DNA of 64,000 nucleotides from NCBI GenBank assembly GCA_947497145.1, contig CANMFQ010000003.1, forward strand, positions 1-64,000. The letters are read 5' to 3'. The notes under the pieces are model-generated. The model was not told the origin of the DNA. It ran no database searches and was given only the letters and a program-made list of their open reading frames with translations. The position numbers and the translations under genes were made by a program. How positions within the stretch are numbered: position 1 is the stretch's first letter; each line of letters opens with the position of its first letter. Origin of the DNA: an uncultured Flavobacteriaceae bacterium (GTDB lineage Bacteria; Bacteroidota; Bacteroidia; Flavobacteriales; Flavobacteriaceae). Below, one piece after another: positions 60,705 to 64,000 of this stretch.

Positions 60705-61193
60705 CTATTTTGCATTCATATTCAAAAAAGCATCCCCTTCATAAGTTGTATAATTAATTTTCAACGCATGGATCTTACGAAGTTCTTGCTTAACATCAGA
60801 AATTAACCCCATAGATGCCGTTTTATCCACCTTTAATGAAACCGTCACAAACGGGCGAATATGCTCGGGTTTTTCATTCATTTTGGCTAGTATTGTAGCA
60901 CCAAAATTTGACATCGCAATAAACTTATCATCAATTTGGATTCTGGGTTCTGTGCCTAAGGTTTTATCAAAAGGAGATTCTGGTTTACCAATATACACCG
61001 TAATAACTCGATCCTTTTTTTCTAACTTTCTTAACTCAGTTGCATTAGGCAATTCATTTGCCACTTTCAGTGCGCTATCCTTCATAACAGTAACCGTCAT
61101 AAAAAAGAATAACAACATAAAAACAATATCTGGTAAAGATGCTGTAGATACTTCTGGTGTATGTGTAGATTTTTTTAATTTGAATTTTGACAT
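60705..61193 (-). CDS. ExbD/TolR family biopolymer transport protein (second of left pair)
   Basis: A 162-residue inner membrane protein that would use proton flow with an ExbB/MotA-like partner to energise the outer membrane. It has one span (about 21-42); the key Asp is in TASLPDIVFMLLFFFMTVTV. The periplasmic domain contains RVITVYIGKP and ends with the KINYTTYEGDAFLN segment. It lies 15 bases after the longer ExbD gene and is a paralogue of the gene at 62931-63413, sharing the same start and end motifs. No TonB is nearby in the window. Confidence 0.93.
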   Translation of the reverse strand: MSKFKLKKSTHTPEVSTASLPDIVFMLLFFFMTVTVMKDSALKVANELPNATELRKLEKKDRVITVYIGKPESPFDKTLGTEPRIQIDDKFIAMSNFGATILAKMNEKPEHIRPFVTVSLKVDKTASMGLISDVKQELRKIHALKINYTTYEGDAFLNMNAK

Positions 61194-61208
61194 GATACAA
61201 TATTTTTT

Positions 61209-61844
61209 TTAGTTACGTTCTGCTTCTGATAATTTCATAGGATACAATTCTTGAATTTTACGTATCTTCTTTTTAAGTTCCTTTTTTACAGCTTCAGGAG
61301 TTTCATTAGCAAAATACTGCCGCTCCATCTCGGTGAAATCCATTCTAAAAAGTCTTTGTGCCTCTCTATTTCGTAAGGTATTGTATGCTGCTACCAATTC
61401 ATTTTGAACCGTCACATACGCTCCATAGCTTGTTTCACGGTTACTCAACAAGGAAACAATAGCTTTTTCAGGATTATCAGATGATTCCGTATCACGAGGT
61501 CCTTTACAATAATCACAATAATTTTCTGATCCTTCTGGCGCACCTCCGTTATCTAAAAAGGCTATAGTTAACGCTCTCAAATCCTTTAAATCTGTAATAT
61601 CTCCATCTACCATTAAATCATCCTCCCCATTTATTAAAATAGGCAGTATATTTCGTTGCGGAATGGGAACCGATATATCTGATTCCCCTGGTAACTTACG
61701 ATCTAAACCTGCATCAGTTTCAATACTCGTAGTTACTAAAAAAAAGATGAGTAATAAAAATGCAATATCAGCCATTGAGCCTGCATTTACTTTTGGTGCT
61801 TCTTCTCTACTTGCCATACGATAAATTTTAAAGTTATTAAACAA
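61209..61844 (-). CDS. ExbD/TolR family protein with extended periplasmic domain (first of left pair)
   Basis: A 211-residue ExbD-like protein. It has one span with the coupling Asp in NAGSMADIAFLLLIFFLVTT. The periplasmic part is about 70 residues longer than a standard ExbD and contains a Cys pair (YCDYCKGPRD) and a C-terminal helical region (ELKKKIRKIQELYPMKLSEA). The Cys pair may form a disulfide. The paralogue at the right window edge has the same additions (CSYCKGKKD). The pairing of a long and a short ExbD suggests a hetero-oligomer with one ExbB, which is not in the window. Confidence 0.92.
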   Translation of the reverse strand: MFNNFKIYRMASREEAPKVNAGSMADIAFLLLIFFLVTTSIETDAGLDRKLPGESDISVPIPQRNILPILINGEDDLMVDGDITDLKDLRALTIAFLDNGGAPEGSENYCDYCKGPRDTESSDNPEKAIVSLLSNRETSYGAYVTVQNELVAAYNTLRNREAQRLFRMDFTEMERQYFANETPEAVKKELKKKIRKIQELYPMKLSEAERN

Positions 61845-62165
61845 CAGTACGCCTCAGCAAAAAATAGGTGCAGTATGAATTGGGAAAGCTGTATATGAGC
61901 AAATTAGCTCATCAGCTTTCATAAGCATCACCAAGAAGCATGCCAGTATTTAACAAACTTTTAACCATCTAATAGGTTGCACCTTCAAAACCAACCTAAA
62001 AAAAAGCATAAACTATGCCTGTTATCTACATTCTTCTGCACTATTGCTTGCAGTAAAAAACTACTGTATAATTAAGTGATACTAAGCTGTAATATAATTG
62101 TGGCTGTAATAAGAAGATGATCATTAAACAGCAGATAAATAAATGAAGGACATAAAAAACGTAAA
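61845..62165. other. Intergenic region with a large hairpin, 321 bases
   Basis: Lies between the beta-barrel gene and the left ExbD pair. The hairpin GAAAGCTG-(tat)-ATGAGC / GCTCAT-CAGCTTTC at 61884-61920 has 14 pairs with a 3-base bulge and a 6-nt loop. It sits 40 bases in front of the ExbD start on the minus strand and has no T-tail, so it could be a structured leader element. No gene is supported. Confidence 0.5.
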
Positions 62166-62855
62166 CTAAAGCATGTAAAATATCAACCCAACTTGTAACG
62201 GAATTAATTGTAACTTCTGTGAATCAAATAAAACATCATCTTTAAATAAACCCGTTAGTGAATAATAAAAATGGATATTAAAATTATGATATCCGACATT
62301 CAACGCAAGTCCATATTGCAAAGAATTAATATCACTATTAGAGAAAGAGGTATCAAAGTCATCTTCTATGACATCAGACACAAAAATAGACCGTTTAGCA
62401 AATGCATATCCAAATTTTACTCCGGCATATATTCTCCAAAAACTATACTCCTTTGGGGTAGAATTTCGCCATCGAAATTGTAATGGCATTTCAACTAAAT
62501 AAGTCTCTAATAAACTTCTATTAAACTCGATATCAGGAATAGTGTACGTAATACCGTTATCTCCCTTCTTAGCTCTAATATTAGAATAATACGAATTATA
62601 GGCTAAACCCAAACCAATACCCATACCTATATTTCTACCGCTATTAAAAGGTAAATCTTTAATAAACCCCAATTGCAAGCCATAAGACAACTTGCGTTGA
62701 CTGGCACCCTCGGGCATATTCAAAACAAAATTATACGTAATACCTGCATAAAATTGATCTTCTAAATAATATTTATCTAACGGTACATCAGCATCCGTTT
62801 CCTCTTGAGCAAACAAAAACAATGGCAAACAACATAAAAAGATACCCAATCGCAT
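62166..62855 (-). CDS. Outer membrane beta-barrel protein (PorT-like)
   Basis: A 229-residue protein with a signal peptide (MRLGIFLCCLPLFLFAQ) followed by alternating amphipathic strands: YAGITYNFVLN, YGLQLGFIKDLPFN, MGIGLGLAYNSYY, MPLQFRWRNS, RIYAGVKFGYAFA, YGLALNVGYHNFNIHFYYS. This is typical of eight-strand barrels of the PorT/outer-membrane-beta-barrel family of Bacteroidota. I start at the ATG at 62855: the longer in-frame version would begin within the terminator hairpin of the preceding gene, and a -7 box lies between them. It is flanked by the two ExbD pairs. Confidence 0.85.
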   Translation of the reverse strand: MRLGIFLCCLPLFLFAQEETDADVPLDKYYLEDQFYAGITYNFVLNMPEGASQRKLSYGLQLGFIKDLPFNSGRNIGMGIGLGLAYNSYYSNIRAKKGDNGITYTIPDIEFNRSLLETYLVEMPLQFRWRNSTPKEYSFWRIYAGVKFGYAFAKRSIFVSDVIEDDFDTSFSNSDINSLQYGLALNVGYHNFNIHFYYSLTGLFKDDVLFDSQKLQLIPLQVGLIFYML

Positions 62856-62860
62856 AAGAA

Positions 62861-62868
62861 CAAAGTTA
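62861..62868 (-). promoter_or_regulatory. -7 box of the beta-barrel gene
   Basis: TAACTTTG on the minus strand matches TAnnTTTG and lies five bases before the ATG at 62855, the same box and nearly the same spacing as at xerC. Confidence 0.55.
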
Positions 62869-62875
62869 AATAAAA

Positions 62876-62904
62876 AACGCTTCAAACTATTCGTTTGAAG
62901 CGTT
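62876..62904 (-). terminator. Terminator of the right ExbD pair
   Basis: AACGCTTCAAAC and GTTTGAAGCGTT form a perfect 12-bp stem with a 5-nt loop. On the minus strand TTTTTTATTT follows. It lies 26 bases after the stop of the ExbD gene at 62931. Confidence 0.88.
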
Positions 62905-62930
62905 CTTACTAGTTCGAAAACTATATTGTA

Positions 62931-63413
62931 CTACTTTATATTAGAAAAAGCGTCGCCTTTTCCGGTGGTATAATTTACCTTAAGTGCATTCACCTTACGC
63001 AGCTCTAATTTAATATCAGAAATTAAGCCCATATTGGCGTCCTTATCAATTTTAAGGGAAGTAGTAAGTACATTTTGTAGATCTTGCGATTTTTTCGCAC
63101 GCTCCATCAAAATATAATCCCCAACTTCTGAAGGACTAGCAAACTTATCATTCAATTGAATCTTAGGTTCAGTACCATAAGTTTTTTCGAATTCACGGTT
63201 TGGCTTCCCAACAAATATGGTAATTACACGCTCCTTTTTTTCTAGTTTTTTGATTTCACTAGCTACTGGCAACTCATTCTTTACCTTTAGCGAGCTATCT
63301 TTCATAACGGTTACCGTCATAAAGAAAAACAAAAGCATAAATACAATATCAGGTAGCGATGCGGTTGATACCGCAGGTAACTCACCACTTTTCTTTTTTG
63401 CAAACTTTGACAT
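62931..63413 (-). CDS. ExbD/TolR family biopolymer transport protein (second of right pair)
   Basis: A 160-residue ExbD-like protein, closely similar to the product of 60705-61193: the same VSTASLPDIVFMLLFFFMTV span with the key Asp, the same RVITIFVGKP strand and the same KVNYTTGKGDAFSN end. It lies 23 bases after the longer ExbD gene. A strong terminator closes the unit. Confidence 0.93.
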   Translation of the reverse strand: MSKFAKKKSGELPAVSTASLPDIVFMLLFFFMTVTVMKDSSLKVKNELPVASEIKKLEKKERVITIFVGKPNREFEKTYGTEPKIQLNDKFASPSEVGDYILMERAKKSQDLQNVLTTSLKIDKDANMGLISDIKLELRKVNALKVNYTTGKGDAFSNIK

Positions 63414-63436
63414 ATTATTTATTTTTAAGCTTTTAG

Positions 63437-64000
63437 TTAATTCGATGACGTCTCTGCCTCAGATAACTTCTGAGGAAACAAATCTTGTATTCTTTTCACT
63501 TTTTCCTTCAACTCTTCCTTCAATTCAGGTGATGTTTCTGGATTAAGATATTCCGCTTCAAGATCAGTAAATTTCCGATTAAAAAGACGCATAGACTCTC
63601 TGTTACGCAACTCGTTATAGGCTGCTACTAACTCATTTTGAACCGTGATGTACGTACTGTACTTTGTTTCCCTATCATTTTTTAGAGAAATAATAGCTTT
63701 AGTAGGGTTATCTGAAGACTTTGGGTCTTTTTTTCCCTTACAGTACGAACATGATCCATCTCCGTTATTTTCAAGAAAAGCAATTGCTTTTGCTCTTAAC
63801 GCTTTCAAATCAGTCAATTCATCATCAGCTAAAAGCTGACCATTCTTGTTAATACTAACTTGAAAGATGTTTTTCTCTTTAATAATAACATCGGTTTCTG
63901 GCGGCTCAATTGGCGGTAACATACGGTCTAATCCTGCATCTGTTTCAATGGTAGTCGTTACCAAGAAAAAGATGAGCAATAAGAACGCAATGTCAGCCAT
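63437..64000 (-). CDS. ExbD/TolR family protein with extended periplasmic domain (N-terminus outside window)
   Basis: 187 residues are visible. The frame runs off the right edge: the first visible residues MADIAFLLLIFFLVTT correspond to the membrane span of the paralogue at 61209-61844, which has about 23 residues before it, so the true start lies beyond 64000. The Cys pair CSYCKG, the SSDNPTKAIISL segment and the C-terminal RIQDLFPQKLSEAE match the left paralogue. Partner ExbB/MotA genes would be expected further to the right. Confidence 0.92.
   Translation of the reverse strand: MADIAFLLLIFFLVTTTIETDAGLDRMLPPIEPPETDVIIKEKNIFQVSINKNGQLLADDELTDLKALRAKAIAFLENNGDGSCSYCKGKKDPKSSDNPTKAIISLKNDRETKYSTYITVQNELVAAYNELRNRESMRLFNRKFTDLEAEYLNPETSPELKEELKEKVKRIQDLFPQKLSEAETSSN

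Follow-up and report, generated by a model that had tools for sequence, protein, structure and literature searches.

A tonB-less exbB operon with paired long and short ExbD proteins, a candidate Ton motor with a heteromeric ExbD axle in an uncultured Flavobacteriaceae bacterium

The window analysed here comprises the first 64,000 bases of contig C3 (CANMFQ010000003.1, 313,776 bases) in the 5.1 Mb genome of an uncultured Flavobacteriaceae bacterium (GCA_947497145.1). Its right-hand end carries two pairs of exbD genes, each with a long and a short member, that belong to a motor gene cluster extending beyond the window. Read from right to left on the minus strand, the order is asparaginase, tRNA-Ser (GGA), exbB, the gene for a membrane protein of 148 residues, exbD-long1, exbD-short1, a terminator-like hairpin, the gene for an outer-membrane barrel, exbD-long2 and exbD-short2 (Table 1). 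A first-pass annotation, made from the letters of the window, had placed two long/short pairs here and regarded them as paralogues; position, strand and relationship were all confirmed. It had also set beforehand, as a check, an extension to the right in search of an ExbB/MotA gene, and named as the adverse outcome the lack of such a gene together with an unconserved cysteine pair in the long members. The extension uncovered exbB, and the cysteine pair is conserved in the order. The four ExbD proteins all pass the Pfam cut-off for PF02472 (ExbD, 25.4 bits), with scores from 40.6 to 66.8 bits; the cut-off for PF01618 (MotA/TolQ/ExbB channel) is 22.9 bits. The nearest named relatives of long1 are found in Ulvibacterium (86% identity), another uncultured Flavobacteriaceae bacterium (85%) and Maribacter (84%).

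Table 1. Features of the motor gene cluster at the right-hand end of the window and just beyond it.
Feature	Position	Strand	Evidence
exbD-short2 (162 aa), short member of the second pair	60705..61193	-	PF02472 52.6 bits; 64% identical to short1
exbD-long2 (202 aa from ATG), long member of the second pair	61209..61817	-	PF02472 53.5 bits; 60% identical to long1; modelled ExbD periplasmic fold
CXXC (CDYC) of long2, in an inserted loop of the ExbD domain that follows helix 1 and precedes the next strand	61506..61517	-	sequence
Outer-membrane beta-barrel protein, core membership doubtful	62166..62855	-	PF13568 87.8 bits; 76/81 loci
Intrinsic-terminator-like hairpin behind exbD-short1 and ahead of the barrel gene; stem of 15 pairs followed by a T run	62873..62907 (L006 3907-3873)	-	terminator scan
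exbD-short1 (160 aa), short member of the core pair	62931..63413	-	PF02472 40.6 bits; conserved with exbB and long1
exbD-long1 (201 aa), long member of the core pair	63437..64000 in the window; start at contig 64042	-	PF02472 66.8 bits
CXXC (CSYC) of long1	63740..63751	-	sequence
Four-helix membrane protein (148 aa)	contig C3 64054-64500, beyond the window	-	80/80 named loci
exbB (266 aa)	contig C3 64526-65326, beyond the window	-	PF01618 101.8 bits; own group in ExbB tree

Conservation of this arrangement was followed in 81 loci, i.e., 80 named loci and that of the window. The genes exbB, membrane protein, long exbD and short exbD appear in this order in 79 of them, and in 58 the row continues with the barrel gene without any extras. 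A second pair precedes the barrel in 11 loci and follows it in four, the window included, while the remaining eight deviate otherwise, by a gene that was not found or by a contig end. The short exbD is present in all 140 scanned loci that have exbB and the long exbD. A single long/short ExbD pair is thus the normal state of this motor, and the oddity is the second pair. Twenty loci were viewed outside the order Flavobacteriales: exbB accompanies both the long and the short exbD in 17 (five of these with TatD or asparaginase on the same stretch), and three have the long gene alone. The four-helix membrane protein encoded between exbB and the long exbD gives no Pfam or NCBIfam match above cut-off; a relative from locus L040 was modelled with a mean predicted local distance difference test score (pLDDT) of 86, and a fold search with this protein gave no PDB match at E < 0.001, from which nothing follows.

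The long and short ExbD proteins are markedly different from each other, and the significant alignment between long1 and short1 is confined to the region of the membrane helix. Both carry an aspartate motif in this helix, SMAD[IV][AS]F in 175 of 182 long proteins and S[LM]PD in 148 of 161 short proteins. Sequence searches against the PDB returned a single ExbD at E 0.0093 for the long profile and no match for the short profile. An AlphaFold2 model of long2, built from 64 sequences, has a mean pLDDT of 83; within residues 55-200, 73 residues superpose on the 74-residue periplasmic domain of Escherichia coli ExbD in its TonB complex (Z 8.2, root mean square deviation 2.0 A), and the comparison with TolR gives a Z of 8.1. 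Foldseek likewise ranked ExbD first with E 0.0039, nothing falling below E 0.001. The surplus of about 70 periplasmic residues that had been described for the long members is real, but it is split over two inserts in an ordinary ExbD fold. One is a loop of about 30 residues (approximately 89-119) set between periplasmic helix 1 and the strand that follows it, and the other consists of two extra helices, 161-169 and 175-191, ahead of the last strand.

The loop holds the cysteine pair reported for the long members, which is a CXXC motif (CSYCKG in long1, CDYCKG in long2). Both cysteines are invariant in a 64-row alignment of long ExbD proteins (A7), and across the loci scanned the motif is present in 157 of 182 long proteins. 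In the named loci it occurs in all 79 first copies, all 15 second copies and both of the copies in a locus cut by a contig end; in the remaining genomes it occurs in 39 of the 61 first copies, all 16 second copies and six of nine orphans, so that all 31 second copies keep it. The 25 proteins without CXXC comprise all 20 from the loci viewed outside the order and five from other families of Flavobacteriales, and the motif seems to have been added, at the level of the order, to a protein that is older. A cysteine pair essential to the motor was rejected as an explanation given these 25 proteins, and so was a bridge between long and short ExbD, the short proteins being free of cysteine in 157 of 161 cases. 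Since the periplasm is oxidising, the most likely use of the CXXC would be a local disulfide or a redox-sensitive staple. Genus g27 has solitary ExbD-like genes (L218 3433-3963 and 3977-4498, L220 4027-4590) with no exbB beside them in the stretches listed; their proteins have cysteines of their own in a different place, between the membrane helix and the first strand.

Another aspect of the cluster is the history of its second pair. A second copy was found in 16 of the 80 named loci, counting one locus cut at a contig end (L069) and one with a second long gene only (L039). Within the genus of the window bacterium the long2 gene is present in 10 of 14 genomes and missing from four; one of the latter (G012) retains, at the position of the second pair, a short remnant of 106 residues only (L194 4358-4678, 53 bits to the short ExbD), probably a product of decay of this pair. 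In a comparison of 21 genomes, both genes proved better conserved as first copy than as second in 210 of 210 genome pairs, which are not independent, with median identities of 79% (first) versus 53% (second) for the long and 84% versus 52% for the short protein. Judged by these comparisons, the second pair is an old, fast-evolving and often lost duplicate. Its absence from four genomes and its lower conservation in every comparison led us to reject it as the working part of the system. The first-pass annotation had proposed an energy-transducing motor, possibly with heteromeric ExbD, specialised because it has four such subunits; its first part remains the best reading, but the reason given for specialisation falls, since one pair is the norm and the second is a duplicate missing from four of the 14 genomes.

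The relationships among long ExbD proteins were examined in a tree of 88 proteins from 61 chosen loci, in which fragments below 150 residues were dropped (the broken long gene of L193 among them). The tree was rooted at the midpoint, has long branches, and shows weak support at 29 of its 85 inner branches. Second copies, whichever of the two gene orders they come from, fall outside the first copies (support of the fork, 85), and the orphan long genes of six genomes and the long-only tandem copies of another family form groups of their own (96 and 97). From this topology the long ExbD is likely to have expanded on three or more separate occasions, but the number is not firm. The occurrence of the long subunit as orphans and as extra single copies is as expected if it is an exchangeable part. 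The orphans are CXXC-bearing long-type genes whose stretches yielded neither exbB nor a short exbD; they are located in L188 (5112-5672), L189 (5111-5662), L190 (4826-5368), L191 (4580-5188), L192 (5205-5759) and L241 (4165-4824). By eye, a helicase-like neighbour recurs in stretches L188, L189, L190 and L192; all of these but L190 also have a dipeptidase-like neighbour, which in L188 matches PF01244. The shared neighbours suggest a conserved second locus for the orphans of these stretches.

There is no tonB gene in the operon. The genome has two PF01618 matches, the exbB of the operon and a gene on contig C21 whose neighbours encode a small ExbD and a protein resembling TolA or TonB. The C21 cluster scores best with TolQ/TolR, and its transducer matches GltJ and TolA only weakly and TonB_C not at all, although a relative in genome G121 has a sub-threshold TonB_C match of 19.2 bits. 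Three stand-alone TonB proteins (PF03544) are encoded on contig C2; a further TonB_C match lies at C3:164807-165424, and the other TonB_C matches of the genome are on C2. A frame of 99 residues beside two of the tonB genes (G000:C2:134967-135116, L225) bears a TonB N-terminus only and is possibly a truncated fourth tonB. On C3, a protein of 936 residues (L226 2802-5612) combines a BlaR1 peptidase M56 domain with two TonB_C domains.

The distribution of the motor was compared with that of these orphan TonBs, using for the latter a profile (A6) of the first 50 residues of the three proteins. The motor was scored by its long ExbD (E up to 1e-20), and an alternative motor by the first ExbD of an exbB-exbD-exbD-tonB operon. 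Among 196 Flavobacteriales genomes, 98 have the window motor, 62 the alternative motor, five both and 41 neither. The TonB N-terminus was detected in 96 genomes: 95 of the 98 with the window motor, none of the 57 with the alternative motor only, and one of the 41 with neither; all five genomes with both motors have it. The same contrast is seen within genus g27, where two genomes combine the window motor with this TonB type and 20 have the other motor and no such TonB, and it is repeated in family f5 (1 versus 37). A phylum-wide sample of 198 genomes gave 85 of the window type, 103 of the other type (E up to 1e-15), three with both and 13 with neither, the weak second-type matches in other classes being matches by score, with gene order left aside. 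Here the TonB type occurs in 24 genomes, of which 23 have the window motor; the remaining one, G082, has neither motor. Genomes with both motors are rare (3 of 198 in the phylum sample, 5 of 196 in the order), and the association of the window motor with the TonB N-terminus points to TonB-dependent uptake.

The alternative operon, in the loci listed from g27, f5 and others, consists of an exbB for 270-289 residues, two exbDs for about 200 and 185 residues and tonB in a row. Compared with the operon of the window, it has no gene between exbB and the first exbD in these loci, and its ExbB belongs elsewhere: in a tree of 43 chosen ExbB proteins, flagged for long branches, the alternative ExbBs (support 100), those of the window type (99) and the classical ones (94) form three distinct groups. 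Hence the two are not simply one operon that lost tonB. In layout the alternative form resembles exbB2-exbD21-exbD22-tonB2 of Riemerella anatipestifer, although the match to published systems is by gene order and size only. In R. anatipestifer, loss of tonB2 lowers hemin uptake, and Flavobacterium psychrophilum is named in the same paper as having two exbD genes in its tonB operon (PMC4446302). The Riemerella operon and the exbD1/exbD2 system of F. psychrophilum share with the window operon the use of one ExbB and two different ExbDs per operon, and both serve a TonB-type function; the Riemerella operon, however, ends in tonB.

Other known motors can be compared in the same way. The classical ExbB-ExbD-TonB and TolQ-TolR-TolA systems have, like the window operon, a PF01618 channel, a PF02472 axle with a membrane aspartate and the ExbD/TolR periplasmic fold; they lack the two unlike ExbDs, the CXXC loop and extra helices of the long protein and the four-helix protein, whereas the window operon has no TonB or TolA gene. 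An unlike TolR/ExbD gene pair behind one TolQ/ExbB gene has been published from other phyla and is similar in its pairing, although no von Willebrand factor A (vWA) family was found among the scanned neighbours of the window operon. Two-ExbD Ton operons are thus already in print, and what sets this one apart is its TonB-less form, the CXXC loop, the extra membrane protein and the duplicated pairs. A search of the literature on ExbD with CXXC, Bacteroidota, TolR or heteromeric ExbD returned no TonB-less CXXC form as judged by titles and the starts of abstracts; subscription papers lay mostly outside this search, so that the absence is weak. Likewise, a 2026 review of Ton and Tol motors contains no word beginning Bacteroid, heterodimer, disulfide, cysteine or GldM.

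From these observations, the cluster is best regarded as a Ton motor with a heteromeric ExbD axle that drives orphan TonBs, rather than as a gliding or secretion motor, a reading to which we give a probability of roughly 0.7. The operon has several of the parts expected of a Ton motor of the two-ExbD kind: a PF01618 channel protein, ExbD with the membrane-helix aspartate and, in the long2 model, the ExbD periplasmic fold, and one exbB with two different exbDs in one operon. According to the mechanism proposed, ExbB would be the proton channel in the inner membrane, and one long and one short ExbD would form the axle, each supplying the proton-carrying aspartate of its membrane helix; the four-helix protein would be a dedicated accessory. 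The motor, having no tonB of its own, would drive the orphan TonB family encoded elsewhere, which in turn would pull on TonB-dependent transporters of the outer membrane. In E. coli, two ExbD chains together hold a single D-box strand of TonB, which binds to one of them in parallel and to the other in antiparallel orientation (PMC10907165). On the basis of this structure, a long/short heterodimer could give each of the two unlike grips on a single TonB strand its own protein, which would make the two ExbDs non-redundant. The second pair may replace the first around the same ExbB under other conditions. A bolder version, in which the heterodimer is obligate and ExbB with its four-helix partner accepts alternative long/short pairs or orphan longs, each tuned to different TonBs or conditions, with the CXXC as a redox switch gating the TonB grip, is unlikely.

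Expression data exist for a possible counterpart. In Maribacter forsetii grown on laminarin, ExbB P177_RS03305 and the ExbDs RS03315 and RS03320 were found in the proteome alongside SusC/D; in total two ExbBs and three ExbDs were detected, and the paper lists three of five annotated ExbDs as expressed on this substrate (PMC11345257).

Several points weigh against the proposed Ton motor. The contacts on which it depends, of long with short ExbD and of ExbB with the orphan TonBs, are predictions from sequence, and co-occurrence is an association, not a contact. The co-occurrence counts are raw and ignore phylogeny, and the TonB query was drawn from this very genome. In the phylum sample, 62 of the 85 genomes with the motor, mostly outside the order, have no TonB N-terminus, which would reflect either divergence or the use of another TonB; motor genomes G248, G251 and G294 similarly have no TonB N-terminus at threshold, while G254 has it with no motor match. 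None of the three TonB N-termini has a histidine comparable to the one in the SHLS motif reported for TonB and TolA; the TonB of the other motor in L204 is likewise without it at this place. As for Maribacter, RS03305, RS03315 and RS03320 may form a window-type operon judging from the spacing of their tags, which fits exbB, membrane protein, long and short, rather than from sequence comparison, and by the same kind of reasoning the two undetected ExbDs may be the second pair; moreover, the changes for that ExbB and ExbD are not marked as significant in the table of the paper (PMC11345257).

The rival that comes closest agrees on a Ton motor and differs on the axle, which would be made of long-long and short-short dimers side by side or of four ExbDs mixing freely, the duplicates serving dosage. 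In its favour, E. coli binds the TonB D-box with a homodimer of the ExbD domain (PMC10907165), and long genes without a short partner do exist, i.e., the orphans and the long-only tandems described above. We nevertheless consider this arrangement somewhat improbable, as the short exbD accompanies exbB and the long exbD in every locus scanned, and as the cysteine-free short protein contrasts with a long protein that keeps CXXC within most of the order, a difference that speaks for separate roles. In addition, inactivation of exbD2, one of the two exbD genes of F. psychrophilum, impairs growth under iron restriction (PMC9331221, citing Alvarez 2008). A different function is implied by the idea that the cluster is a Tol-like motor, serving constriction and stability of the outer membrane, and that the genuine Ton motor is the exbB-exbD cluster on C21. 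The window ExbB scores higher with the NCBIfam model of TolQ (64.8 bits) than with those of ExbB (46.3 and 40.1 bits), all far below cut-off, and the cluster lacks tonB. This idea is improbable, however, given that C21 is itself the better Tol candidate by its scores and its transducer, and that the TonB N-terminus tracks the window motor. Moreover, no tolA, tolB or pal family appeared among the neighbours scanned, a scan that covered part of the open reading frames in a 20-kb stretch.

In gliding and type IX secretion, GldLM is the ion-driven inner-membrane motor of these same bacteria. GldL belongs to a different family from the window ExbB and is encoded elsewhere in this genome, at C3:284911. 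A secretion or gliding role, also named by the first-pass annotation, would have the cluster act through the barrel, whose gene adjoins the exbD genes in most loci (Table 1). GldL was found in 96 of the 98 genomes with the window motor and in all 57 with the other motor only; it occurs with either type, so the GldL system does not need the window motor, and on this ground gliding or type IX secretion was rejected as the principal explanation. No GldL model appears among the NCBIfam matches of the window ExbB up to E 1. The barrel itself was not found beside the motor in the families viewed outside Flavobacteriaceae, except one, and in the window it lies behind the terminator-like hairpin, which leaves the secretion or gliding role very improbable and the barrel without support as a core part. 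The earlier description of the barrel as PorT-like holds for the broad family only: there is indeed a PF13568 protein between the pairs, but its equivalence to PorT/SprT of the type IX secretion system comes down to the match to this family, with no NCBIfam match and no PDB sequence match up to E 1.

Some details of the locus complete the description. The exbD-long1 gene extends 42 bases past the window edge. The exbD-long2 frame has an alternative start (TTG) at 61844 besides the ATG at 61817, and the barrel frame opens with TTG at 62885, with a probable ATG start at 62855 and a signal peptide-like N-terminus; a gap of 348 bases separates the barrel gene from exbD-long2. Stretch L006 has six terminator-like sites against a mean of 2.9 in shuffled sequences, the stem of the hairpin behind exbD-short1 being by far the longest. 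The tRNA-Ser (GGA) gene between asparaginase and exbB lies at G000:C3 65401-65489 (L006 6401-6489). The neighbours scanned comprise asparaginase, TatD, an aspartyl protease-like protein, cytochrome c peroxidase, a 2-oxoacid dehydrogenase acyltransferase, the barrel, a PAP2-like protein, a sigma-54 protein, a class II tRNA synthetase, an MMPL transporter and one protein without a match.

If the proposed Ton motor is correct, a motor in which the two grips are separate proteins would make the asymmetry of ExbD testable by genetics, one grip at a time. The four-helix membrane protein becomes a candidate motor subunit, and the orphan TonBs of marine Flavobacteriaceae, which feed on polysaccharides via SusCD transporters, would gain a motor.

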